64,000 nucleotides of DNA from Polyangiaceae bacterium (GCA_009781005.1 WQYX01000002.1:1-64000), one strand, 5' to 3'. Positions 25,753 to 45,255 are shown, counted from the first letter of the stretch. Numbers and translations: made by a program. The notes: generated by a model from the sequence alone, not told the origin.

Positions 25753-25804
25753 CTTATGGTGGCGCAAGAGTGCCCGGAGAGTGCGTGCTAAAGGTAGCGA
25801 CCTG

Positions 25805-26713
25805 ATGACGGAGGCACTCTCTAAGGATGTCGGCGCGCAGAGCTTGCCTGACGATCCCGCGCTCGCTCGCCTCGCCGCCATTTTGCAGGGCATGGGCTCG
25901 GTCCTCGTTTGCTACTCGGGCGGCATCGACAGCGCTTTCGTGCTCGCGGTCGCGCATCGCGTGCTCGGCGACGAGTGCGTCGGCATGACCGCCGTGAGCC
26001 CGAGCCTCGCGTCGTTCGAGCGTGAAGAAGCAGCACGGGTTGCTCGCCAGATCGGCGCGCGCCACGAGCTCGTCGAGTCGGGCGAAATCGATCATGAGAA
26101 TTACGCGAAGAATGATATTGACCGGTGCTTCCACTGCAAGAGCGAGCTTTATCGCCTGAGCGCAAAAAAGAAGATGGATTGGGACTTGGCCGAAGTCGTC
26201 AATGGTACCAATACCGACGATCTCGGCGATTATCGTCCGGGCCTCGAAGCCGCGAAAGAAGCGGGGGCGCGCAGCCCTCTCGTCGAAGCCGGGCTCGGCA
26301 AATCCGAAGTGCGCCGGCTCGCGCAGCTTCTCGGAATGTCCATTTGGGACAAGCCCGCCGCTGCATGCTTGTCGAGCCGTTTGCCATATGGAACTCGGGT
26401 GACGCGCGAGCGACTCACTCAGATTGATGCGCTCGAAAAAGCAATTCACGATCTTGGGATTCGTCAAGCGCGCGTGCGCTGGCATAAATTAGAATCGACA
26501 GGCAACACGGTCGAGAGCGCGATGGCACGCATCGAAGTCGCGCACACCGAAATGGCAAAAGCGTTCGAGGTGCGCGAGGAGATCGTGGAAGCCGGAAAGC
26601 GCCTTGGATTCGCGTACATCACGCTCGATCTCTCCGGCTACCGCACCGGCAGCCACAACGAAGTGCTCAAGGGGCGGTCGCTAAGGGTGATAAGCGACCC
26701 CGATGCTCGGTAA
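25805..26713 (+). CDS. larE: LarE-type ATP-dependent sacrificial sulfurtransferase
   Basis: Member of the PP-loop family that adds sulfur to the pyridinium biscarboxylic acid precursor of the nickel-pincer cofactor (family knowledge). The 302 residues have the PP-loop SGGIDS at 38-43, a conserved RCFHCKSELY cysteine pair and the AAACLSSRLPYG cysteine. ATG 25805 is preferred; GTG 25781 is possible. The last 155 bases before the final codons (26537-26691) are duplicated at 28234-28388. The native end is probably that of the copy (LRVI then stop), so the tail SDPDAR here comes from inserted DNA. larB and larC are not in the window. Confidence 0.88.
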   Translation: MTEALSKDVGAQSLPDDPALARLAAILQGMGSVLVCYSGGIDSAFVLAVAHRVLGDECVGMTAVSPSLASFEREEAARVARQIGARHELVESGEIDHENYAKNDIDRCFHCKSELYRLSAKKKMDWDLAEVVNGTNTDDLGDYRPGLEAAKEAGARSPLVEAGLGKSEVRRLAQLLGMSIWDKPAAACLSSRLPYGTRVTRERLTQIDALEKAIHDLGIRQARVRWHKLESTGNTVESAMARIEVAHTEMAKAFEVREEIVEAGKRLGFAYITLDLSGYRTGSHNEVLKGRSLRVISDPDAR

Positions 26714-26880
26714 TCAGATGCCGACGTAACTACCACACACAGAAACCTCCCGACGGCCCGGGTTCCACACCAACTTCCAATCTGAAGGCGTCAGGCTCCC
26801 AAGGGAAGGTAAATGTCGACTACGAAGATTACGTGTTAAAGGTGGCATCAAGAGAGGCTGATGCACAAAGGAGAAAACTG

Positions 26881-27816
26881 ATGAACAAATCGGCAATATA
26901 TTTTACCCGCGCCGCACCTGCTGCGCGTGAGGGCGCGGTTATTCTCTCTGGCCACATGATTGACCAAGAGGCCGATCCAAGTTTTACGCGACCAATGAAC
27001 ATTTTTGTTGATCAATCGTGGGGGCATTCAGGCGATGTGCGCAATGATGTGGTTTACGGTTTGGCGACGAGGCCGTCAACTGCAGTACCTGGCCTGACTG
27101 AGATCTACGCGTTGGGCCGGGACGCAACCTTGTGGATCAAGCGACCTCGGCAAGACCCTGTGGAAGTCAAGGTGCCGGTCCGGGAACCCTGGATGTATCT
27201 GGAAAACGTGTGCCTCGCCTCGACTGGCATCTACGTCTGCGGCGGTCAGCGGCAGGTGTATCGGTACTCGGATGGACAGTGGTCGGCCCAGGACGACGGG
27301 ATTTACATTCCTTCAACCAACGGGGAGCCGGGCCCGACCTTGTTTTCGATTATTGAGTTGAAAGATATGTCGCTGCTGGTCGTCGGCTCAGGAGGATTCA
27401 TTGCCACGCGGCCTGCCGGTGGGGCTTGGACGATCCTCGATTGCCCAACCAACATGGACTTGCTTTGTGCATTACCGGACGATCAAGGGATATGGATTTC
27501 GGGCCGTGCGGGTACATTGCTGTACCTGTCCGCCGATATGGCAACGTGGTCCGATCATTCGGACGAGAACGTCAGTACCGCTAACTTTGATTGCCTGGCG
27601 CACCATGGTAAACGCGTCTACATCACTGCCAGGAACGATCTTCTTGTGACTACAAAAGAAGGGGGAATCGCCGTTGTGCAGGCACCATTCAAGCCGGACA
27701 GTGAATTTCACAGCGTCTGCACTTCTGGCGATTATCTTTTTGTCACAGGTGACGAGCATGTGTATCGGCTTGGACCCGATGGCTGGGTGTATCTTCAATG
27801 CCCAGACAATACCTAG
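26881..27816 (+). CDS. Cargo protein of insert 1, probable beta-propeller (BNR/WD-like), function unknown
   Basis: A 311-residue protein. ATG 26881 has an AGGAG site seven bases upstream; ATG 26833 lacks one. Repeating short strands with GxY/GxW turns (GQWSAQDDGIYIPS, GAWTILDCPTNMD, IWISGRAGTLLYLSADMATWSDHSD, DGWVYLQCPDNT) suggest a bladed propeller. There is no signal peptide, membrane segment or catalytic motif. Codon use is less GC-biased than in flanking genes. Position inside a larE duplication marks it as imported. An immunity or decoy role, as for propeller proteins in toxin-immunity loci, is only a guess. Confidence 0.7.
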   Translation: MNKSAIYFTRAAPAAREGAVILSGHMIDQEADPSFTRPMNIFVDQSWGHSGDVRNDVVYGLATRPSTAVPGLTEIYALGRDATLWIKRPRQDPVEVKVPVREPWMYLENVCLASTGIYVCGGQRQVYRYSDGQWSAQDDGIYIPSTNGEPGPTLFSIIELKDMSLLVVGSGGFIATRPAGGAWTILDCPTNMDLLCALPDDQGIWISGRAGTLLYLSADMATWSDHSDENVSTANFDCLAHHGKRVYITARNDLLVTTKEGGIAVVQAPFKPDSEFHSVCTSGDYLFVTGDEHVYRLGPDGWVYLQCPDNT

Positions 27817-28123
27817 CCAGTGTTGCGGTGATCGGATACCCCCGGCCCAGTCGTTTCCGATCCCCATCGTCCCCCAGCAGCACGTCGAGAAGGCCGCCCA
27901 CCTGCGCCACATGTGCCTGATGAATCTGGGGTGTCTGGACAAGCGTATCGCATCTGGATAGCATTGCGAGAGCGGGCAGCCACGGCAGCTGTTGCCGGCA
28001 GGCGCTGGAATCGCCACGGTGGGGGCACTGCAAACACGCGACATGGCGCGGCCGGCCGTACTGCTGGACTTGGCCGGCTCCTCGCCGGACGCCCGCGGCG
28101 TGCAAACCCAAGCGGCGTCAATT
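27817..28123. other. Non-coding part of insert 1
   Basis: Between the cargo gene and the family D element. Short open frames exist on both strands but none has family features, and no strong hairpin or terminator was seen. It may contain decayed coding sequence. Confidence 0.4.
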
Positions 28124-28233
28124 GCGGGCCTTCCCCGTCCGTGCGCAGGAAGGCGCGCTTCGCGCCTGACGAGCACGTGACAAGGGGAAGGCGGCGCAGC
28201 TCGCGTAGCGAGCGCGCGGTTGGGGCTCATTAA
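28124..28233 (+). repeat. Family D structured element, copy 1
   Basis: A 110-bp element closed by GGGCCTTCCCC pairing with GGGGAAGGC. Inside is a CGCGCTTCGCGC-type hairpin and a CGTGC/GCACG stem; after the closing stem comes a GC-rich hairpin (CTCGC-GTA-GCGAG), then TGGGGCTCATTAA. Copies: 42211-42323 (very close), 28741-28910 and 34188-34312 (diverged but with GACGAGCAC or GCGAGCAC, CAAGGG and GAGCGNAGCGA in the same order). The conserved folding with changing sequence suggests a structured RNA or a protein-recognised end. Confidence 0.75.
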
Positions 28234-28392
28234 GTCGCGCACACCGAAATGGCAAAAGCGTTCGAGGTGCGCGAGGAGATCGTGGAAGCCGGAAAGCGCT
28301 TCGGTTTCGCGTACGTCACGCTCGATCTCGCCGGCTACCGCACCGGCAGCCACAACGAAGTGCTCAAGGGGCGGTCGCTAAGGGTGATTTGA
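28234..28392 (+). pseudogene. Duplicated 3' end of larE
   Basis: 155 bases match 26537-26691 of larE with five substitutions. The frame runs VAHTEMAKAFEVREEI.. to LRVI and TGA at 28390-28392. It has no start codon. This end probably is the original larE terminus, displaced by insert 1. Confidence 0.85.
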
Positions 28393-28740: not shown

Positions 28741-28910
28741 AAGGCTGGCAATCTCGGCGCAACGGGCTCCCCTGGCGGCGCGCAGGAAGGCGCGCCCCGA
28801 GGTCTCGCCGCAGGCGGGCCGAAGACGCGAAAGCAGAGGCGCGCCTGACGAGCACCGCCCAAGGGGGAGCACGCGCGGTGAGCGGAGCGAGACGCGCGGT
28901 GGGGTCCCAC
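28741..28910 (+). repeat. Family D structured element, copy 3 (at the norD stop)
   Basis: A diverged, longer copy: GGAAGGCGCGC..GAGGCGCGCCTGACGAGCAC, then CCCAAGGGGGAGCACGCG, the GAGCGGAGCGAG hairpin and GCGGTGGGGTCC. It ends immediately before the norD stop codon (28911-28913). Confidence 0.6.
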
Positions 28911-30800
28911 TCAACACAGTCGTTCGTAGGTCATCGTGAGGGCGGAGACGAGCTCGTCGACTTTCAAGAGCGGGTGGTAGCGGCCGGGGCCCAGCATGGC
29001 GGGCATCATTTCACCTGCGCGCGGATCGATGGTGAGGGCGTGAATGCGCACGCCGACGCGATCGGCCTCGCGGACGGCTTGACGCACATCGAGGATGCCG
29101 TGTTTGCCTTCGTATCGATCGTAGTCCGTGGGCTTGCCGTCGCCGATCATGAGAAGAAGCTTGTGGCGCTCGGGCCGGCGAGCAAGCAGGCTCGTTGCGT
29201 GACGGAGCGCGGGCCCGATGCGCGTGTAACCTTGCGGTTGCATGGCTCCGAGATGCGCGCGCCCAACGGGCCACGGCGTGCCGTGCCCCATGATCTCGAA
29301 GACGCGACACGCCGTCCTCGTGTGCGAAGCGAACGCGAAGATCTGAATCGTGTCACCGAGCGTGCTCGTCACTTCACCGAGGACGAGAACGGCCTCGCGC
29401 GCGACGTCGAGCACGCGCCGATCGGAGACCCACGCGTCGCTCGATAGCGAAACGTCGAGGAGCACGAGCAGCGCGACGTCTCGCTCCTTTCTGCGCCGTT
29501 GCACGTAAAGGCGCGGCGCCCCGCAGTCGTCCGCGCGCAGCGAAGAGAGGTGACGGACGACCGCGTCGAGATCGATGGCCTCGCCATCGCGCTGCCGTCG
29601 TTCGACGGCGCGACGAGTGCGCGCAACCTCGATGCACTTGCGAAGCTCGTCGATCTTTCGCCGATGCCGCACGAGGGGTTCTTGGTGCCAGACCAAGTCC
29701 ACGGCGCTCACTTGCGTTGGGTAAACCGTGCACCATGCACGCAAATAATCGTGGCGTTTCGCGTCCCATTCGTCGTACGGAATGCCGCGCTCGTGAGCGA
29801 GCACGGTCTCGACGTCAGGGATGTCGGCCGAGGCCGAGACGTCGGCAGAGAGAACGGCGTGAACGCGATCATCGGAGCGAATGATCTTGCCCAGATCGAG
29901 CTCCTCGAGAGCTTCAGCGTGCTCGTCGAGCTGGTCGGAGCCGTCCAGATCGCGCGCACCGCCGTGGTAGTCCTCCGCGGTGTCGACCTTTTCGAATGCA
30001 TGCTGGACGACGTTTTCCTCGAGCTCCTTCGGATCGATCTCAACGAGCTCGATGGTCTCGATGGCTTTGACCTTGCGCTGTCGCGCGTCGCGCTCCGGCG
30101 GGCTCCCCACGTCTCTCGCGGCGTCGTCGCCGCGTGCCACGTCGTCCGGACGCATGCTGCCCCAGAGCACGACGGGCGGCGAACGCCGATCTCTGGGTGC
30201 TCGGGCGAACGCCGTCGAATCGAAACGTGCACCTTGCACGAGGATCTCGCGGCGCAGTTCCTCCACCTCCGCTTCGCCGTGCGCGAGCTCTCGAGGATCG
30301 GGCCTCTCGGCAAGTGCCGCTCTGCACGCCGGCTCCCATCGCTCGAAAAATCCAGGCCACGACTCCAAAAGCGCCTCGAGTGCGGCGCGCACCGCCATGA
30401 CCTCGCTGCGAACGTCGTCGAGACGATGGCGCGGGACGAATCGAGCATGCTGAACGTAGAGCATGCTCGAGAGCGCGGTCCGCACGACGTACGCGTCGAC
30501 GTTGCCCGCAGGCGACTCGGAGATCGATATCGTCGCCGGCAGAAACAGCACGCGCCCAACGATGCCCCCTTCCGCTTTCGCGGATCGAACGCGCACGTCA
30601 TCTCCGGCGACGATGCGCGCGAGCACCGTCAGTCGCGGCTCGAGGAGAGCGAGATGCGCGGCGTAAGGCGGAATCGCTTTTTCTGAGCCACGACCAAACG
30701 CCCGCGCAATCCGGCGAATTGCTTGATACGCGGAAAGTTGCCAATCCCAATCGAGCGACGGCCCGCGCGATGAATCGACAGGCTTATCTTCTGGAGACAT
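28911..30800 (-). CDS. norD: NorD, von Willebrand factor A protein for NO reductase assembly
   Basis: A 629-residue protein with a C-terminal vWA domain. The MIDAS motif DVSLSSD lies near residue 445, with later Thr/Asp segments GYTRIGPALRH and GDGKPTDYDRYEG. NorD works with the AAA+ ATPase NorQ to insert the non-haem iron into cytochrome-c-type NO reductase (family knowledge). The middle region is acidic and probably flexible. Its ATG (30800) lies six bases from a family A repeat that separates it from norQ, so the native leader has been replaced and no ribosome-binding site is evident. The stop abuts a family D element. Confidence 0.88.
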   Translation of the reverse strand: MSPEDKPVDSSRGPSLDWDWQLSAYQAIRRIARAFGRGSEKAIPPYAAHLALLEPRLTVLARIVAGDDVRVRSAKAEGGIVGRVLFLPATISISESPAGNVDAYVVRTALSSMLYVQHARFVPRHRLDDVRSEVMAVRAALEALLESWPGFFERWEPACRAALAERPDPRELAHGEAEVEELRREILVQGARFDSTAFARAPRDRRSPPVVLWGSMRPDDVARGDDAARDVGSPPERDARQRKVKAIETIELVEIDPKELEENVVQHAFEKVDTAEDYHGGARDLDGSDQLDEHAEALEELDLGKIIRSDDRVHAVLSADVSASADIPDVETVLAHERGIPYDEWDAKRHDYLRAWCTVYPTQVSAVDLVWHQEPLVRHRRKIDELRKCIEVARTRRAVERRQRDGEAIDLDAVVRHLSSLRADDCGAPRLYVQRRRKERDVALLVLLDVSLSSDAWVSDRRVLDVAREAVLVLGEVTSTLGDTIQIFAFASHTRTACRVFEIMGHGTPWPVGRAHLGAMQPQGYTRIGPALRHATSLLARRPERHKLLLMIGDGKPTDYDRYEGKHGILDVRQAVREADRVGVRIHALTIDPRAGEMMPAMLGPGRYHPLLKVDELVSALTMTYERLC

Positions 30801-35979: not shown

Positions 35980-37626
<1,647 letters not shown>

Positions 37627-37703
37627 GGCGTTCTCTTCTTCGTCTTTGGTTACGTGGACACGCTGTGAAAATCGTAAAATCGGCTGATCCAAACCAACAC
37701 GAG

Positions 37704-38246
37704 TCAGTTCGGGATCATGGCCTCTTTCATCTGGTGGAGGCGCGCAACGAGCGAGCCATCGAACACCGTGTCGCCGACGCGAACGACGACGCCACAGAGA
37801 AGCGACGGATCGATCTTGCGGTCGAGCGCGATACGGCGTCCAGTGACGCGTTCGAGTTCGCGCTGCAATCGCACGAAATAATCTTCCGAAAGCGGCATGG
37901 CTGCCAAGACTTCGGCGCGAACGATGCCGCGTTTCTGATCGGCGAGCTCGCGCAGGCGAACGGCGATGGCCGGCAGCGCCCTCACGCGACGGCGATCGAC
38001 GAGAAGAGCGAGCGCGTTCTTCGCCGTGACGCCGAGGCCGAGCCGGTCGCTCACCTCGTGCATGATCGCTTTTTTCGCGGACGCCGAGAGGAGCGGATCT
38101 TCGAAAGCGCTGCGCAGCTCACGACTGGACTCGTAGGCCTCGGCAGCGCGCCCCAGCTCGTCGACGAGCGCGTCGAGCTGCCCCGCCTCGCTTCCGAGTT
38201 CGAGCAAGGCGGCTGCGTAACGCTTTGCGATGACGCCAGGAATCAC
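37704..38246 (-). CDS. atpH: ATP synthase F1 delta subunit
   Basis: Peripheral-stalk connector between F1 and the b subunits. 180 residues, with the N-terminal [18 protein letters not shown] helix bundle and the C-terminal [23 protein letters not shown] typical of OSCP/delta. The ATG overlaps the atpF stop by four bases. Confidence 0.93.
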
Positions 38247-38950
38247 GATGCACCTCCCGTGGAACTTGCAGCGGCAGGACGGCGCGACAGCTCGGCGAGC
38301 AAGTCGTTGGCGAAGCGAGCGTGATCGTCCGAGGTGATCGACCGCGCAAGGATCTTCGAAGCTTCTTCGACGGCGAGATCGATGGTCTCGAGATGGATCT
38401 CGTGCCGGAGCTGGTGGCGCTCCTGCTCGACGAGGCGATCGGCGTCGCGCTTCATGCGCTCGGCGGATTCGTTCGCATCGTTGAGGATTCTGTCCGCGTC
38501 GCCCATGCCGGCCGCAATGAGCGAATCACGCGCAGTTCTGGCGTGCTCATCGGCGTGGGCAAGATCGCCCTGATACTGCTTCGCGCGCTCCTTCGCCTCC
38601 GCGAGGAACTTCTGCGCATCCTCGATCTCTTTGCCGATGGTGATGCGGCGTTGCTTGAGACCTTCGGCAACCGGCTTCTTGCCCAACGTGTAATAGAGAG
38701 CCGCAAGAAGACCGAAGTTTATGACGAGCGCGAGGATCGCGGGCTTCTTCTTGTCGAAGACATCGAACCAGTTGATGGACTCCGGACCGTGGTGACCCTC
38801 GCCGTGCTCGGCACTCTCCTGCGCACCATGCTCGCCATGCGCACCGTGCTCGGCAGGCACCGCATGTTCTTGCGCCACGGCAAGGGCCGTGACGAGAGCA
38901 AAGGCTGACGCGAGCAGTCCTACGAGGATTCGTCTGAAACGCGTTCTCAC
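38243..38950 (-). CDS. atpF: ATP synthase F0 b subunit with a signal-like, His-rich N-terminal extension
   Basis: Peripheral-stalk membrane subunit. 235 residues from GTG 38950, overlapping the b' gene stop (GTGA). Unusually, the usual membrane anchor (AILALVINFGLLAALYYTLG, about 69-88) is preceded by a cleavable-looking signal (ILVGLLASAFALVTALAVAQ) and a His/Gly/Glu-rich stretch (about 31-56, ten or so His). The rest is a long charged coiled coil. The extension would lie outside the membrane and might bind metal; that is inference. Confidence 0.9.
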   Translation of the reverse strand: MRTRFRRILVGLLASAFALVTALAVAQEHAVPAEHGAHGEHGAQESAEHGEGHHGPESINWFDVFDKKKPAILALVINFGLLAALYYTLGKKPVAEGLKQRRITIGKEIEDAQKFLAEAKERAKQYQGDLAHADEHARTARDSLIAAGMGDADRILNDANESAERMKRDADRLVEQERHQLRHEIHLETIDLAVEEASKILARSITSDDHARFANDLLAELSRRPAAASSTGGAS

Positions 38951-39441
38951 GACGACACCTCCCGGCCGAGAACGCGACCGGCGATCTGGCGGCCGAGCGC
39001 GGTAGCTTCCGTGCGGAGCTGCTTGCGCGCCGCGTCCGCCTCAGTGGTGATGTTTGCGCGACCATGCTGAAGGGTGGCCGCCGCTTTTTCGCGAACGCCA
39101 GCCATGAGCTCGGCTTCCTTGCGAACGCTTTCGGCGCGAAGAGCGTCGCGCTGGGCGGCGCCGGCAGCACGTGCCTTGGCAAGGATGGCCTCGTACTCGG
39201 CAAGAGCCTTGGATGAGCGCTCATCTTCCTTGCTCGCCTCGCGACGCGTGCCTTCAATGCGTTTTTCGCGCGCCTCGAAGAGACGCATCATCGGGTCGAA
39301 CAGCATCGGCTTGAGCACGATGATGAGGGCGACGAAGATGATGACTTGAACGAAAAGACTTAGGTCGAAGTCGACGGTAACGCCGCCCTCGGCCAAGATT
39401 TGTCGGGACGCTGTGAGGGTGCTCACGCTGAGCAGCGACAT
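38947..39441 (-). CDS. atpF': ATP synthase F0 b' subunit
   Basis: Second b-type stalk subunit. 164 residues from ATG 39441 (MSLLSVSTLTASRQ). One membrane span (about 24-43, LFVQVIIFVALIIVL) is followed by a charged coiled coil. It pairs with the b subunit encoded next. It is the first gene of the run b'-b-delta-alpha-gamma; c and a subunit genes and beta/epsilon are not in the window. Confidence 0.88.
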   Translation of the reverse strand: MSLLSVSTLTASRQILAEGGVTVDFDLSLFVQVIIFVALIIVLKPMLFDPMMRLFEAREKRIEGTRREASKEDERSSKALAEYEAILAKARAAGAAQRDALRAESVRKEAELMAGVREKAAATLQHGRANITTEADAARKQLRTEATALGRQIAGRVLGREVSS

Positions 39442-39641
39442 GGGGCCTCGTAAGCTCGCTCGACGAACCACTTCTCCCGAAGGGACGCCGAGCGTCGGAC
39501 GGGTCGCGAGCTACCACTACCGGCTCCACGTGTCCACGTTAAGTTGCCCAGTCCGCGCTGTTAAAGTTGCGCGCGAGCTGTCTCGCGCGTCCAGATGCCA
39601 AACCGGGCTCGTTTGGGCATGTGGCGTGCACCCGTCGTCGC
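39442..39641. other. Spacer upstream of the atp run and of the small lipoprotein
   Basis: Divergent region that must hold the promoter for the atp genes on the minus strand. No clear -10/-35 pair could be chosen. A GCGCGCGAG/CTCGCGCG inverted repeat lies near 39570-39590. Confidence 0.35.
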
Positions 39642-39890: not shown

Positions 39891-40688
39891 TCACAGACCA
39901 AGGACGAACGCGCGCACGGCTTCGCGGAACGCCTTCGGTACTTCGAGGTTGGGTAGGTGCGCGGCGTCGTCCAGCACGGCGAGCTTCGCGTTTGGAATCG
40001 CGCGCGCGAGTGTCTCGGCAACAGGCAGGGGTACGAGGACGTCTTCGCGCCCGGACACGACGAGGGTCGGCACACGGATCGACGCGAGATCAGCCGTCCT
40101 GTCCGCACGATCGCGGATGGCTTCGAGCGCTGAAGCAATGGCGCCTGCCGACGATTGCATCCCGAGAGCGCGCACCTGACCGACGACCTCCGGCTTGACG
40201 TTCACCGTGGTCTTCGAGAGCAAGCGCGCGATGAGTTCTTCGACGACGGCACCTTCTTCCCCTGCCCTTACGCGTGCGATGTTCCGATTCCGTGTGGCGC
40301 GCGCCGCCTCCGGTTCGGCCTCCGCGCGCGTGTCGATGAGCATGAGGCCGCGCATGCGCGAAGCATGTCGGTGCGCGAACGAGAGCGCGACGTAGCCTCC
40401 CATCGAAATGCCTCCAATGACCACGCGCTCGCGAATGCCGAGGGCATCGAGCAACGACGCGACGTCGTCGGCCATCGCGTCGATCGACGGCGGCTGCAAC
40501 GCGTCGAACGGCGTCGTCGTGCCAAAGCCGCGCATGCTCGGAGCAATGACGCGCATCGCGTCCGACAAGAGATCCGCATCCGCGCGAAACACCTCTGCGG
40601 AGAGCGGGAACGGATGCAAAAGAACGACGGTCGTGCCTTTGCCCTCATCAATGAACGACATGCGAAGCCGCGCGGTATCGATCTCCAT
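39891..40688 (-). CDS. Alpha/beta hydrolase
   Basis: 265 residues from ATG 40688. HPFPLSAEVFR supplies the oxyanion region, GISMGGY the nucleophile elbow Ser (about residue 95), a late Asp lies in VSGREDVLVPL and a His in LDDAAHLPNLE. It resembles the 3-oxoadipate enol-lactonase group but the substrate is unknown. The first 267 coding bases plus upstream sequence (40422-40766) are repeated at 42324-42668 with 3.2% divergence, bracketing a 1557-bp insert. This left copy is the intact gene. Confidence 0.88.
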   Translation of the reverse strand: MEIDTARLRMSFIDEGKGTTVVLLHPFPLSAEVFRADADLLSDAMRVIAPSMRGFGTTTPFDALQPPSIDAMADDVASLLDALGIRERVVIGGISMGGYVALSFAHRHASRMRGLMLIDTRAEAEPEAARATRNRNIARVRAGEEGAVVEELIARLLSKTTVNVKPEVVGQVRALGMQSSAGAIASALEAIRDRADRTADLASIRVPTLVVSGREDVLVPLPVAETLARAIPNAKLAVLDDAAHLPNLEVPKAFREAVRAFVLGL

Positions 40689-40805
40689 GGCAGCGCGAAC
40701 GCTAGCCGGACGAGGCGAGCTCTGCGAGCGCGCGACTTGTCGCACGCGAGGCATCTTGCGACACCCCGTTGGAACCCTTCCGCGCTTTTCGCATCCGGAG
40801 GTGCT

Positions 40806-42032
40806 TCAGCGACAACCCCCGAGTTCAATCGAGCCTTCAATCTTCTTGAAATCTTCGTTGAACCAGATCGCTTTCACGCCGACGTCTGCATCCGCGAGAA
40901 ACTCTTGCGACTCTTGAGAAGGCCTCGTCGGAAACAGCACGGCGAGGTCGATGGCCACTCGATTGCTTTGCCGTCTGCGATAGTCGAGAAGCTGGCCCAC
41001 GGCCATTCTGCACATTGGCATCGCATCATTGGTTTTCACCTCCACCAGCAGGTGCCGACCATTCCGGTATTCAAGGATCAGAGCGTCGAACCGACAAGTC
41101 CGCTCTGATCCTTCCTGGACGATGAGACCGGCCTGCTTGCAGATTGCGCGAAACGCGTTCGTCATGGTGTTGTGCGTCCGACGCATCGTCACCATATCCA
41201 TCGAGCGCAGGTACTCCACGTCCTCGTCGTTGCGCTCTCCCAATTCCTTTGGCGGATTTGCAATTTGTTCCTCATCGATCACATCGAGATCGAGGGCGTC
41301 GTCGATACCTGCCTGCCCAATCCGCTCCAAAAGGTCGTCATGGAGGTCGTCATGTTGGATGACGGCATCGAGATCGAAGGCGTCGTCGATACCTGCCTGC
41401 CCGATCAGGTTCACGAGACCGTCATATTGCGCTCCAAGGGTCAGTGATGCGGGGTCGAGGCGCCTCAGAAACTGGCGCGTTCGAGCATTGATGATTGGTG
41501 CGCGACTGCGCGGATCGAGACACGCGAGAAGCGGGGTCAGGAGGTTCGACGGCTTACCATCTCCTGCGCGCGGGCGAGACAGAAGCGGGAGGGATTCGAT
41601 CTTGCGATAAGCCGCGTTCGCAGCGCCATCGTCGACCGCACTGGCTACGGAGTCGACAATCTTCCGGACAGCGTCACGATGATCACACAGCCACTCGCGA
41701 GCGATTCTGCGAAAACCGTTGTAATAGGCCACTATCCCGAGCTCTCCAATGGCATCCGGAGCGCCGTTGGTCTGAAACCCCTTCATTAAGGCTAAGCCGG
41801 CCTTTGGATCAAAGCCAAGGTCCGAGAGTGCCTCTACGACTGCCCCAGTGTTATCAGTGATCTCACGATGTCTGTTTTTTGTGATCCAGGTAAGCCTGCA
41901 TAATGCATGCAGTTCATCGGCCGACAGTGCGCCCCTTGAGGCGCAGATGTCGTAACAAGCTCGTACGAGTCGTGCTGTCCTTCGCTCGCGATTGGCCCAT
42001 TCCTGAATTTCGCCATCAGCCCAGTCCAACAT
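40806..42032 (-). CDS. Cargo protein of insert 2 with a C-terminal PD-(D/E)XK nuclease-like domain
   Basis: 408 residues. The C-terminal 110 have the pattern of a PD-(D/E)XK fold: RFDALILEY (acidic residue), HLLVEVKTND (E-x-K) and VGQLLDYRRR (downstream Gln helix), as in restriction-like and defence nucleases. The first 300 residues are helical and unrecognised; they contain a direct repeat IGQAGIDDA(F/L)DLD separated by about 28 residues. There is no signal peptide. Codon use is less GC-rich than in neighbours. Location inside a host-gene duplication marks it as imported. A defence or DNA-processing role is inferred from the fold only. Confidence 0.72.
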   Translation of the reverse strand: MLDWADGEIQEWANRERRTARLVRACYDICASRGALSADELHALCRLTWITKNRHREITDNTGAVVEALSDLGFDPKAGLALMKGFQTNGAPDAIGELGIVAYYNGFRRIAREWLCDHRDAVRKIVDSVASAVDDGAANAAYRKIESLPLLSRPRAGDGKPSNLLTPLLACLDPRSRAPIINARTRQFLRRLDPASLTLGAQYDGLVNLIGQAGIDDAFDLDAVIQHDDLHDDLLERIGQAGIDDALDLDVIDEEQIANPPKELGERNDEDVEYLRSMDMVTMRRTHNTMTNAFRAICKQAGLIVQEGSERTCRFDALILEYRNGRHLLVEVKTNDAMPMCRMAVGQLLDYRRRQSNRVAIDLAVLFPTRPSQESQEFLADADVGVKAIWFNEDFKKIEGSIELGGCR

Positions 42033-42210
42033 GATCCCATCAAAGTATCACCGCAGTCGATGCGAGTGCGCGGACAGTCCCTCGTCGCTGAGCGACGAAG
42101 GCCGGCTTGAGCGAGAAACTCACGGCGTGTCACGAACCCTTTGGGGTTCCGAAATCGAGATGATGTCTGTTGTTCTGATAAACCCTTGGAGATCGACGAT
42201 GCAGCAATGA
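42033..42210. other. Spacer between cargo 2 and family D element
   Basis: Upstream region of the cargo gene. A GTCGCTGAGCGAC-type hairpin lies near 42087-42099. No gene seen. Confidence 0.35.
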
Positions 42211-42323
42211 CGGGCCTTCCCCGTTCGTGCGCAGGAAGGCGGGCGCTTCGCCCGCCTGACGAGCACGTGACAAGGGGAAGGCGGCGCGGCGAGCGCAGCG
42301 AGCGCGCGGATGGGGCCGCTTAA
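42211..42323 (+). repeat. Family D structured element, copy 2
   Basis: 113 bp, nearly identical in plan to 28124-28233: GGGCCTTCCCC/GGGGAAGGC closing stem, CGGGCG-CTTC-GCCCG hairpin (one pair longer than copy 1, with compensating change), GACGAGCACGTGACAA, the GAGCGCAGCGAGC region and TGGGGCCGCTTAA. It is flanked on the right by the duplicated hydrolase segment. Confidence 0.78.
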
Positions 42324-42590
42324 CACGCGCTCGCGAATGCCGAGTGCATCGAGCAACGACGCGACGTCGTCGGCCATCGCGTCGATCGACGGCGGCTGCA
42401 ACGTGTCGAACGGCGTCGTCGTGCCAAAGCCGCGCATGCTCGGAGCAATGACGCGCATCGCGTCCGACAACAGATCGGCGTCCGCGCGAAACACCTCGGC
42501 GGAGAGCGGGAACGGATGCAAAAGAACGACGGTCGTGCCTCTGCCTTCGTCAATGAACGACATGCGAAGCCGTGCGGTGTCGATCTCCAT
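42324..42590 (-). pseudogene. Duplicated 5' fragment of the alpha/beta hydrolase
   Basis: Starts at ATG 42590 (MEIDTARLRMSFIDEG) and matches the first 89 codons of the gene at 39891-40688, then runs into the family D element, losing the nucleophile Ser. The homology continues upstream to 42668. The frame stays open through the repeat to 42120 but that part is not hydrolase. Confidence 0.85.
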
Positions 42591-42745
42591 GGCAGCGCGA
42601 ACGCTAGCCGGACGAGGCGAGCTCTGCGAGCGCGCGACTTGTCGCACGCGAGGCATCTTGCGACACCCGCTTCATGCAGCCGAGGCCAAGCAAGACGCAG
42701 ATCTGCAGGTCGGCTTGAGGAACGCGCGTTGCACGATTCTGCGGC

Positions 42746-43183
42746 GTGCGAGAGCGTGCTTTGAGTGAAGACCTGACGATCCGCGACAGGATGTACGAGA
42801 GCTTCGGCCAGCAAGGGTTTGCCATGCCCACCTACCTTTCCGAACCGCACGAACGCGACGGCAGCCCGCTCACGGTCGGAATCGCTTGGGACGAAGCAGA
42901 AGAGTCCGCTTTGGCCGAAGGTTACGTCGATCGCATGAGCGCGAGTTCCATCGGGTCGCATACCGAACGCGACGAGCGCATTCACGATGCGGTGCTCGAC
43001 CGGCTGACAGGCGACGGATCGATCGACATGTCCGAGGTCGAAATCATCCTTCACGAGGGCGAGGTCACACTCAGTGGAAGCGTTCCAACGGCTGTCGATC
43101 GCGCACGTGCCGAGATCCTCACCGAGCGCGTTCTGGGTGTCGTCGGAGTCGTCAATCGACTCAGCGTCGTGCCGCACTTTTAA
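42746..43183 (+). CDS. BON-domain protein
   Basis: 145 residues from GTG 42746. The C-terminal 70 (ERIHDAVLDRLTGDG to VVGVVNRLSVVPHF) form one BON domain, a lipid- or envelope-associated fold found in OsmY-like and porin-associated proteins. No signal peptide is evident, so it may be cytoplasmic or start elsewhere. It follows the second hydrolase copy and is followed by the hairpin cluster. Confidence 0.75.
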   Translation: MRERALSEDLTIRDRMYESFGQQGFAMPTYLSEPHERDGSPLTVGIAWDEAEESALAEGYVDRMSASSIGSHTERDERIHDAVLDRLTGDGSIDMSEVEIILHEGEVTLSGSVPTAVDRARAEILTERVLGVVGVVNRLSVVPHF

Positions 43184-43190
43184 CGCTACT

Positions 43191-43527
43191 GCCGGAACTT
43201 CGTTCCGGGCTACGCGTTTCCGCTACGCGGAAACCAGTCGTGTTCCCTTGTCTCAAGGGGGCGCGGCGCCCCCTCTTGCCCGCTTTCGCGGGCAATTCAC
43301 CCCTCCGAAAAGCCGCTCCCGCGGCTTTGCTCACTCCTGCCGGAATACTTCCGGCAGGAGTGTTAAATGCGGCATGTATCAGAGCGTGCTCGACAGCCGT
43401 CGCGAGCGAATCGAGGCTAGGGCGGAGCGCGAGGAGCCCGCGTAAACGTGACTTGTCGTACGTGCGCAGGCACCGCAGCGCCCACCTGAGGTCCCGCCGT
43501 AGGCGGGCCGACAGCGCCGAAGGCGCC
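43191..43527. repeat. Cluster of eight short-loop perfect hairpins
   Basis: Perfect stems with short loops, in order: 43192-43208 (7 bp, TTC), 43216-43234 (8 bp, TAC), 43256-43274 (7 bp, 5-base loop), 43276-43295 (8 bp, TTTC), 43309-43328 (8 bp, TCCC), 43332-43362 (14 bp, TAC), 43493-43507 (6 bp, GTA) and 43514-43526 (5 bp, GAA). Each stem has a different sequence, so this is not one repeat copied. It lies between the BON gene and the FGE lipoprotein. The first stem begins 8 bases after the BON stop and could terminate transcription, but there is no U-tract. Confidence 0.75.
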
Positions 43528-43656
43528 ATCGAAGCGTATCGATTCGCGCAGCAGGCTGGCGAACTCGCTCTCAGTGAGTCATGTGCGCCCATGAGGCGAC
43601 AGCATTGACCGATTGCCGTCGTCGCGCGAAATATGTCCATCCTAAGGACAGTGACG

Positions 43657-45255
43657 ATGCGCCTCTTTCACGGAACTCTTGCAAGCCTTTTGAGTCTTCT
43701 CGTTCTTGTTCCTGCGTGTTCGGGTGGCGGAGGTGGCGGACAAGATAGCGTGCCCTCGTCCGACCTGAATTCCTCGCAGCAGGCTTCATGCAACGACGAC
43801 GCGGATTGTGCCAGGGGTGAGCGATGTGTCGAGAATTCTTGCATACCCACTTCTTGTACCGACGGCGTGCAAGACGGCGATGAAACGGACGTCGATTGCG
43901 GTGGGTCGTGCGAGCGTTGCGACGCTGGGAAGGCATGCCAGGTTGGCGACGATTGCGACAGCCGTTTCTGCACGGACAGCGTATGCGAACCTCGAGAACA
44001 AGGGCGCAAAGACGGCGATGAAACGGACGTCGATTGCGGCGGCAAGGTGTCACCACCGTGCGGTTGGGATCTCGCGTGTGTGGTGAACGAAGACTGTGCG
44101 TCGAACGCGTGCAGCGCCACCACGAAGAGATGCGTTCCACCGAGCTGCACGGTCCAAGATGGCGGGAAAACGTGCGGTCTCGACGGCGCCTCGGATTGTT
44201 GCCGCTCCTTGCCCGTGACGGGTTACCAAACGATCAACGGCAAGACGGTCTATCTCGATAAATACGAAATTACGGCCGGGCGCATGCGCGCATTCGTGCA
44301 AGCCGTGACGGCCAGCCAAGGTGGCGTAGCGGATATCAAAGGCTACATGGACGCGCATCGCCCCGCGCGCTGGAATGACGCATGGGGAGCCGTACTTCCT
44401 TCGGCGTTCCAGGATGGCCAACCCGAAATCACATATCAAATTTCGAATCCAACACCGAAGGTTTACGAGCCTTTGCGCGGTTATTTTTATCCAGGGCAAG
44501 ACATCGTAGCCCCCACCGGCGCACTGTCTGCGGTTTCAAATGGTTCGTATTCAATCTGGCCAAGCATCGTCAACACCTTCGGTGAACTTCACTTTTTTGA
44601 CGAGTACTCGTCGACTGCAGCGAACCACAATCTCAATTGTTCCAACACGAGCGGCTCGTACGGCCGCGGCACCTACTGGCTTCCTCCGGGCGGGAACATC
44701 AATAGGCAGTTCGATCAAGCCACGATGGACAGGCGAGCCCTCAACTGCACGACCAACGCGATGTTCGCGGCGTTCTGTGCATGGGACGGCGCCGAGCTCG
44801 TGACGGAAGACGTGATGCAGTACGTGGTGGGCGGTTCGCTCAGCACGAGTGGCCATATTGGCAATTGTGCCGGGTGCCGCATTGGCGCAGCCCCCACCGC
44901 AGCCTCCGGAAGCTGCACGCGGGGCCTCAACATCACCTACGACAGCGGCGGCAGCTACAGTGCTTGCCCCAACCTCCCAGGTTATGATCCAGGCCCGAAT
45001 GAAGGCATGGATGCTTCGGGACGTATCTTTGCGCCTGGCATTGTCGCAGACGACGTCATTCGGGTCGTAGCAACGGACGAAGGCTGGTACGATCTCATTG
45101 GGAATCTGATGGAGATTGTCGTCTCCTCAGACGATCTGTTTTTTTATAATGGCTATGGCCTTGGAACCATGAGCGTCACGTATCACCGCGCCCAAATCAA
45201 GACAGCTCGCTACAAGAGCGGATCCATGGGGGCGCGGTGCATGCGCCTCAAGTGA
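43657..45255 (+). CDS. Lipoprotein with Cys-rich repeats and a formylglycine-generating-enzyme (SUMF1)-like domain
   Basis: 532 residues from ATG 43657. The signal MRLFHGTLASLLSLLVLVPAC has lipobox Cys21. Residues 45-175 hold Cys-rich repeats of the DGDETDVDCGG type (two clear copies plus two diverged DC..GxxC units), common in myxobacterial surface proteins. The C-terminal 340 residues read as a C-type-lectin-like FGE-sulfatase fold: TVYLDKYEITAGRMRAFV, ATWL-equivalent ATMDRRALNCTTNAMFAAFCAWDGAELVTE-like core, ending SMGARCMRLK. Most such lipoproteins are not sulfatase activators, so catalysis is uncertain. It converges with the HPF-CSD gene, 13 bp apart. Confidence 0.8.
   Translation: MRLFHGTLASLLSLLVLVPACSGGGGGGQDSVPSSDLNSSQQASCNDDADCARGERCVENSCIPTSCTDGVQDGDETDVDCGGSCERCDAGKACQVGDDCDSRFCTDSVCEPREQGRKDGDETDVDCGGKVSPPCGWDLACVVNEDCASNACSATTKRCVPPSCTVQDGGKTCGLDGASDCCRSLPVTGYQTINGKTVYLDKYEITAGRMRAFVQAVTASQGGVADIKGYMDAHRPARWNDAWGAVLPSAFQDGQPEITYQISNPTPKVYEPLRGYFYPGQDIVAPTGALSAVSNGSYSIWPSIVNTFGELHFFDEYSSTAANHNLNCSNTSGSYGRGTYWLPPGGNINRQFDQATMDRRALNCTTNAMFAAFCAWDGAELVTEDVMQYVVGGSLSTSGHIGNCAGCRIGAAPTAASGSCTRGLNITYDSGGSYSACPNLPGYDPGPNEGMDASGRIFAPGIVADDVIRVVATDEGWYDLIGNLMEIVVSSDDLFFYNGYGLGTMSVTYHRAQIKTARYKSGSMGARCMRLK

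Follow-up and report, generated by a model that had tools for sequence, protein, structure and literature searches.

We report a recurrent insertion process in the genome of a Polyangiaceae bacterium, a relative of the myxobacteria. The process is real and repeated, usually leaves the host gene usable and sometimes brings a defence-like gene with it. The inserted DNA ends in a folded repeat element, here called D, whose 3' end lies against one of two direct copies of a host stretch. The anatomy of these insertions, their recurrence, the motif at their target sites and the presence of empty sites in relatives are all shown below. The window, i.e. the whole stretch of DNA analysed, is 64,000 nt long (GCA_009781005.1 WQYX01000002.1:1-64000) and belongs to a MAG, G000, of 4.77 Mb in 199 contigs, 100% complete by tool estimate.

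Two insertions in the window

At the alpha/beta hydrolase locus (Table 1) the two direct repeats are 345 bp long and differ at exactly 11 positions, with 0 gaps (E = 7e-165). Thanks to the left copy the hydrolase, whose ORF matches Pfam Abhydrolase_1 (E = 8e-25), is whole on the left, and only a 5' fragment of it is present on the right. The insert between the copies has, with D left out, a GC content of 56.8%, versus 64.5% in the left flank and 62% in the genome sample, and the terminal TTAA of its D element abuts the second copy. In the nearest relative, G002 (the Polyangiaceae MAG WQZB01, Polyangiaceae bacterium Emb289P4bin44), which is 75% identical at this locus, the hydrolase ortholog directly adjoins the BON-domain gene and the site is thus empty; since the two genes are direct neighbours there, we considered the hydrolase locus of G000 to be an insertion.

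In the second case, at larE, the copies differ at 5 positions over 157 bp, and the insert is missing from the larE loci of all six relatives examined. The right copy keeps the native 3' end of the gene (VI*), as in the larE of G002, and the left copy has gained a foreign tail (ISDPDAR). No duplication is detectable at the third D copy in the window.

A first-pass annotation, made from the sequence alone, had described the hydrolase case as a 1557-bp insert, with one cargo gene and D touching the second copy, between 345-bp repeats that differ at 11 positions, and all these values held exactly, as did an intact hydrolase on the left with a fragment on the right. Its account of the larE case held too (1540 bp for the insert by our boundaries, 1542 bp in the annotation).

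As separate observations, the hydrolase locus is bordered on its left by genes that, judged by sequence, encode the alpha, delta and b-type subunits of ATP synthase, and Cys-rich secreted proteins in which the motif DGDETDVDCGG is repeated are encoded elsewhere in the window and at contig C7, where two are in tandem.

Table 1. Positions of the features discussed. Positions without a contig name are counted from the first base of the window; contigs belong to G000 unless another genome is named.
Feature	Position	Strand	Remarks
Alpha/beta hydrolase, host gene	39891-40754	-	full 287-aa ORF
Target site, D-side junction	40417-40423	+	ATGAC^CA
Hydrolase left copy, target duplication	40422-40766		345 bp
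Hydrolase insert	40767-42323	+	1557 bp
Cargo ORF, orphan	40806-42032	-	408 aa
Direct repeat inside the 408-aa cargo gene	41282-41341 / 41366-41425		60 bp, 84-bp period
Family D element, hydrolase case	42196-42323	+	core 42214-42321; conserved upstream stretch starts at 42196; terminal TTAA 42320-42323
Hydrolase right copy	42324-42668		hydrolase 5' fragment; continues into native right flank
BON-domain gene	42746-43183	+	native right neighbour
larE left copy	26535-26691	+	157 bp, inside larE (25781-26713)
larE insert	26692-28231	+	1540 bp
larE cargo ORF	26833-27816		327 aa, within larE insert
Family D element, larE case	28128-28231	+	end of larE insert
larE right copy	28232-28388	+	157 bp
Third D copy in the window	28766-28911	+
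ATP synthase genes	35980-39471	-
Secreted Cys-rich proteins	43633-45255; L107:6259-9235		two in tandem at C7
Double-ended inserts	C77:13737-14964; C89:6743-7653; C136:7250-8493
Family E copies	43181-43372 (window); C7:51491-51678; C8:51355-51543		others in G000; many in G002
Composite-family sites	C24:32539; C54:13014; C71:23796; C80:158; C19:59967; C26:142
Cas12/TnpB-like gene	C7:49353-51431 (L107:9353-11431)	-	692 aa
IS200-like TnpA	C187:2092-2448 (L138)		short contig
D relatives downstream of rpoC	G001 C42 ~302-308 kb (L316); G006 C79 ~51-56 kb (L314)

Recurrence in the genome

We examined a sample of 2.2 of the 4.77 Mb of G000. An unbiased search for direct repeats (> = 38 bp in length, > = 85% identity, copies 60-3500 bp apart) produced 60 pairs, and a D profile found 70 copies of D with an intact 3' end in the same sample. 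We considered a D copy as lying at a repeat edge if no more than 12 bp separated its 3' end from the inner edge, the element was inside the insert and the 3' end faced the copy. By this rule the 3' end coincided exactly with a host direct repeat's inner edge for 15 of the 70 copies, against a random expectation of 0.05 (at most 1 in any of 300 trials); the 5' ends of D, taken as a control, gave 1. Three further pairs end in variants of D, at C7 (169 bp, a D tail), at C89 (289 bp, 98.6% identity, a divergent D) and at C136 (132 bp, a doubled tail). The doubled tail, CTGCTTAACAATGGGG, resembles the product of slipped re-priming at the D end.

Across the sample the duplications are 40-457 bp long with 90-100% identity, and the inserts are 106-2294 bp long with varied cargo. 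The shortest insert consists of D only (106 bp); it is flanked by a 40-bp duplication that is 100% identical and shows a 6-nt microhomology, ACGGGC, at the 5' joint. Identical duplicates occur at unrelated sites (C108, 76 bp, 100%; C71, 40 bp, 100%). Most D copies (about 52-55 of the 70) have no detectable duplication, and these may be old, may belong to longer inserts or may have another origin.

In three inserts, on C77, C89 and C136, an inverted D or D-like tail is also present at the left end, so that the two ends face outward, and the duplications are long. Hence, given these three inserts, one-endedness is not universal.

Another repeat family of this genome, E, gave no long target duplication at any of the 6 full copies tested. 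Family E elements are about 190 bp long and MITE-like, with imperfect inverted ends TAACACTACTGCC...GGCAGGAGTGYTAA. We also observed a composite family, in which D is embedded at an identical place within another repeat (..ATACTCGGTCCGCAACCTGCTCGGGG..D..ACTGACCGCASCGCAGGCCCCAACGATGAGATCGCG..) and more than 200 bp upstream of D are common to four copies.

The first-pass annotation had proposed that the two cases in the window reflect one shared integration process, that a genome-wide search finding many such repeat pairs with varied cargo would support it, and that it would be refuted if these were the only two cases in many related genomes or if D were common enough to sit there by chance. The shared process held, the search being positive in the 2.2 Mb sample and the cargo being varied. 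Neither refutation succeeded: 15 D copies plus 3 variants lie at host repeats, with more in three other genomes (G003, G006 and G092, see below), and 70 intact 3' ends would yield only the 0.05 coincidences given above; family E shows no duplications. The annotation had also taken the matching size (1540 and 1557 bp by our boundaries) and divergence (3.2% in both cases) of the two insertions as evidence. This part failed, and the match is a coincidence, because the inserts of the sample span the whole range of lengths and the duplications the whole range of identities reported above. Its term gene capture held only in part, because many inserts are gene-free (106-316 bp); it is D that moves, with a gene as an optional passenger.

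Structure of D and its target site

The D element is about 105 nt long. Its outer stem is formed by CCTTCCCC and GGGGAAGG, its inner hairpin surrounds the nearly invariant GYGCGCAGGA...GACGAGCAC, and its 3' part consists of a second GC-rich hairpin followed by GGATGGGGCC and by a terminal TTAA, AACT or TCTA. The stems covary, with two-sided compensation at 10 of the 23 predicted pairs, and Rfam gave no match at E < = 1 for six D loci. Homology upstream of D extends for about 6, 13, 25-30, 50 or 70 nt depending on the copies compared (often 25-30), and in the gene-bearing cases for only about 8-30 nt. The 3' ends of the inserts are shared; the 5' joints all differ and have nothing in common.

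To compile the target sites, the element end was fixed by hand at TTAA, AACT, TCTA or the equivalent. From 18 sites (17 in G000 and 1 in G003) we obtained the consensus T-Y-G-A-N^S-A, with G at -3 in 16 of the 18 (p = 6e-7) and A at -2 and at +2 in 14 each (p = 1e-7 for each). The string YGANSA was matched by 9 of the 18 sites versus 0.9% of positions. These p-values are somewhat generous, because the rule for the boundaries was chosen manually and coding DNA contains many of the sites. The hydrolase-locus site agrees with the consensus at 5 of its 6 defined positions. Since the 3' end is fixed, the 5' end is random, the motif is on the 3' side only and the duplications are long and variable, we infer a specific reaction at one end and repair or copying at the other.

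A reading without any dedicated enzyme is template switching, in which replication stalls at the D hairpins and jumps to the target and back. The variable duplications, the microhomology at one joint at least and the repeat-rich genome speak for it. Against it, the 3' joint is base-precise or nearly so at the D end and the targets share TYGAN^SA; moreover, none of six copies of family E, which is rich in hairpins, has a duplication, and chance jumps predict deletions as frequent as duplications. We considered this explanation very unlikely.

Relatives of D in other genomes

With a covariance model run on 98 genomes of the family, strong D elements were restricted to G000 and G002, and weaker relatives that keep the invariant core were found in G001, G003 and G006 and, in another genus, in G092 and G110. 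G003 and G006 share the genus of G000, and G092 belongs to another one. In G003 a 218-bp duplication (98.6% identity) lies against the D end of a 165-bp insert, at the target GAT^GAGCG, and a 5'-shortened copy is its neighbour. In G006, duplications of 42 bp and about 700 bp lie against D ends beside rpoC, which is left whole, and in G092 the duplication against the D end is 88 bp long (87.5% identity). Outside these genomes, an exact 26-mer of the D core had zero matches in IMG/VR contigs, no D element was found in PLSDB plasmids, and a degenerate D pattern gave mostly chance matches across GTDB genomes.

As an observation in its own right, D relatives are clustered just downstream of rpoC, together with additional rpoC 3' ends, in G001 and G006 (Table 1), so this region may be an insertion hot spot in these two genomes.

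The results from these relatives bear on the possibility of an assembly chimera, in which the short-read MAG would have fused strains through the D repeat. In its favour, G000 is in 199 contigs, several of which terminate in D, and the divergence of the copies could reflect a mixture of strains. Against it, the matching anatomy recurs in G003, G006 and G092; because these are independent assemblies, misassembly is unlikely on this ground alone. Furthermore, misassembly should not yield a target motif or precise ends, and family E produces no such structures. Taken together, these points leave almost no room for a chimera.

Cargo genes

Four large inserts hold one complete lower-GC gene each, and the GC content of gene-bearing inserts is 56-57% versus 62% in the genome sample. 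The cargo at C74 is a 562-aa kinase that matches the PADLOC candidate PDC-S65 (3e-44) as well as kinase defence models, and the 404-aa protein at C20 has similarity to PDC-S11 (4e-8). Two of the four gene cargoes thus resemble candidate anti-phage genes, their defence function being inferred from models only. The 327-aa cargo at larE has at best a weak beta-propeller match.

The 408-aa cargo at the hydrolase locus had no convincing match in Pfam, PADLOC, NCBIfam, PDB, GTDB, IMG/VR or plasmids, and no convincing relative across 58 related genomes. Its C-terminus (CRFDALIL...HLLVEVKT...AVGQLLDYRR) is possibly like a PD-(D/E)XK nuclease core, a motif read by eye and unconfirmed. A single-sequence AlphaFold2 prediction had a mean pLDDT of 42 and gave an unusable model, of which only the C-terminal strand-strand-helix-strand order agrees with PD-(D/E)XK. 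Separately, an internal 60-bp direct repeat in this gene results in a repeated IGQAGIDDA[FL]DLD in the protein.

Divergence between the copies

The mismatches between duplicates are mostly at third codon positions, about 63 of 93 when the true hydrolase frame is used (55 of 93 by automatic ORF choice), and 9 of the 11 in the hydrolase duplication in its true frame. The larE duplication departs from this pattern, most changes in each of its copies altering amino acids. By our own estimate, the third-codon bias exceeds what the decay of a dead fragment predicts. It is therefore likely that alleles of other strains entered the copies, either by recombination in the population or because strains are mixed in the MAG. 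Because of the same bias we rejected the 3.2% divergence as a clock for the age of the insertions.

Homologous exchange with related strains could also be proposed as the origin of the insertions, by Campbell-type circle integration or homology-facilitated illegitimate recombination, if the incoming DNA happened to hold cargo and D beside an allele of the host gene. The third-codon-biased divergence, which suggests two functional alleles, is in its favour. It fails to explain D at the joints in many unrelated genes, the target motif and the 106-bp insert of D alone with identical copies, it is countered by the identical duplicates at C108 and C71, and it only moves existing insertions among strains. 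As an origin we therefore regard it as very improbable.

Proposed mechanism

We lean, by a limited margin, towards non-autonomous elements that insert from one end, 3' end first, with the far end made by copying or joining and the target duplicated in the process. The order of the steps, the use of a DNA rather than an RNA intermediate with one-end chemistry of the HUH or IS200/IS605 kind, and the role of selection are inferred. Precisely, a family of non-autonomous mobile elements would have D as its 3' terminus and as its sole defined end. An unidentified enzyme would join the precise D 3' end (TTAA, AACT or TCTA) to a target cut at TYGAN^SA. The free 3' end of the target would then be extended by 40 to several hundred bases, displacing the D-bearing strand, and microhomology or template switching would probably link the extended end to any available 5' end of the inserting strand, the far end being formed without a defined terminus. 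Two copies of the target would flank an insert whose 3' end is fixed and whose 5' end is random. Where the duplicated stretch reaches the end of a gene, one whole copy of the gene would remain, and insertions in or near needed genes would survive. Extra DNA upstream of D may sometimes be carried along, and a useful gene, possibly a defence gene, may be retained as cargo. Against this reading stand the lack of an identified enzyme, the majority of D copies without a detectable duplication, the third-codon bias of the mismatches and the three inserts in which inverted D sequence occupies both ends.

The main competitor is target-primed reverse transcription, in which D would be the structured 3' end of an RNA, used by a reverse transcriptase acting in trans in the manner of LINEs and SINEs, and which would yield variable 5' truncation and long variable duplications. 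It is supported by the shared structured 3' end with covarying stems, by the varied extents of upstream homology and the 5'-shortened neighbour copy in G003, and by the variable duplications and the tandem-tail slippage. A search for RVT_1 had zero matches in G000, G002 and G003, which does not exclude a divergent or unbinned reverse transcriptase, and RVT_1 is present in 8 of the 12 members of the genus. Against this competitor are also the cargo gene in the window, which is whole and antisense to D, and some inserts containing upstream hairpin stretches that are seemingly outside a transcript. We considered it unlikely, and favoured a DNA intermediate because RVT_1 is absent from the three genomes and the window cargo holds a whole gene antisense to D.

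As for the enzyme that one-ended DNA insertion would need, none was found among the Y1 transposase and TnpB/Cas12-like candidates in G000. The sole Y1_Tnp match is an unrelated IS200-like gene on C187, without D, and the single TnpB/Cas12-like gene, at C7, has no D nearby; both were rejected. The latter encodes a lone protein with PF07282 just above the cut-off, a RuvC-like VAIHIGWR and a CxxC...CxxC zinc ribbon, and a family E copy lies directly upstream of its gene.

Discussion

The nearest known phenomenon is the insertion with long target duplication described for restriction-modification genes in Helicobacter pylori and others (Nobusato et al. 2000, via PMC1643837 and PMC3031569). The two have in common single accessory genes, often nuclease- or defence-like, a long and variable direct target duplication, and recognition against an empty relative, here G002 for the hydrolase and six relatives for larE. 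The duplication feature is met by the 40-457 bp of G000 and the up to about 700 bp of G006. As to restriction-type cargo, we found two PADLOC candidate defence matches and one protein that is PD-(D/E)XK-like by motif only, and many inserts are gene-free. The relevant passages of the two citing papers mention neither a terminal element common to the insertions nor a target motif, whereas D insertions have a structured 3' element and a cut-site consensus and include inserts without a gene.

Other systems are similar in part. Non-LTR retrotransposons and SINEs have a conserved structured 3' end, a random 5' end, variable duplications and a weak target motif. D insertions resemble them in the conserved 3' end, the variable 5' end, the variable duplications and the weak target motif, but the host is bacterial, there is no reverse transcriptase in the three D-carrying genomes searched, and the duplications, at 40 to about 700 bp, far exceed the usual length. 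IS200/IS605 elements insert 3' of a short motif such as TTGAT, have a subterminal hairpin at the right end and ends such as TTAA or TCAA, and make no target duplication. Like these elements and their short non-autonomous derivatives, D is inserted beside a short motif (the degenerate TYGAN^SA) and has a hairpin and similar end sequences; D inserts differ in having no left end, no linked TnpA or TnpB and a long target duplication.

The Rep HUH nuclease of AAV nicks its target, and strand displacement and template switching then duplicate part of the target gene, which can remain functional. The likeness, which by analogy may include a GAGC-rich repeat near the cut, is limited by AAV being viral and its host eukaryotic. 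Integron gene cassettes consist of a cargo gene and then a folded 3' element, an order shared by gene-bearing D insertions, from which they differ in that D insertions have scattered sites, either orientation of the cargo and long target duplications. The scattered sites and long duplications speak against insertion at attI by an integron integrase.

In conclusion, D insertions match no bacterial transposon mechanism that we could identify. They belong to a known but unexplained kind of insertion, to which they add a shared terminal element and a cut-site motif, and there is a real chance that they represent a new class of element. A bolder reading, which in our judgement could equally well prove right or wrong, is that of a new class of transposable element with one defined end, in which a folded 3' terminus, about 105 nt long, would be joined to a nick at TYGAN^SA and the far end would be made by copying host DNA, so that each insertion would duplicate tens to hundreds of bases, keep the host gene usable and be able to bring single anti-phage genes.

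If the process is one-ended, it would add a mode of transposition that, to our knowledge, is not known in bacteria. The shared folded end and the cut-site motif make an old puzzle testable, the task being to identify the enzyme acting on D. The process would also illustrate how single genes, possibly related to defence, can come to lie beside conserved genes such as larE and rpoC, leaving these unbroken.
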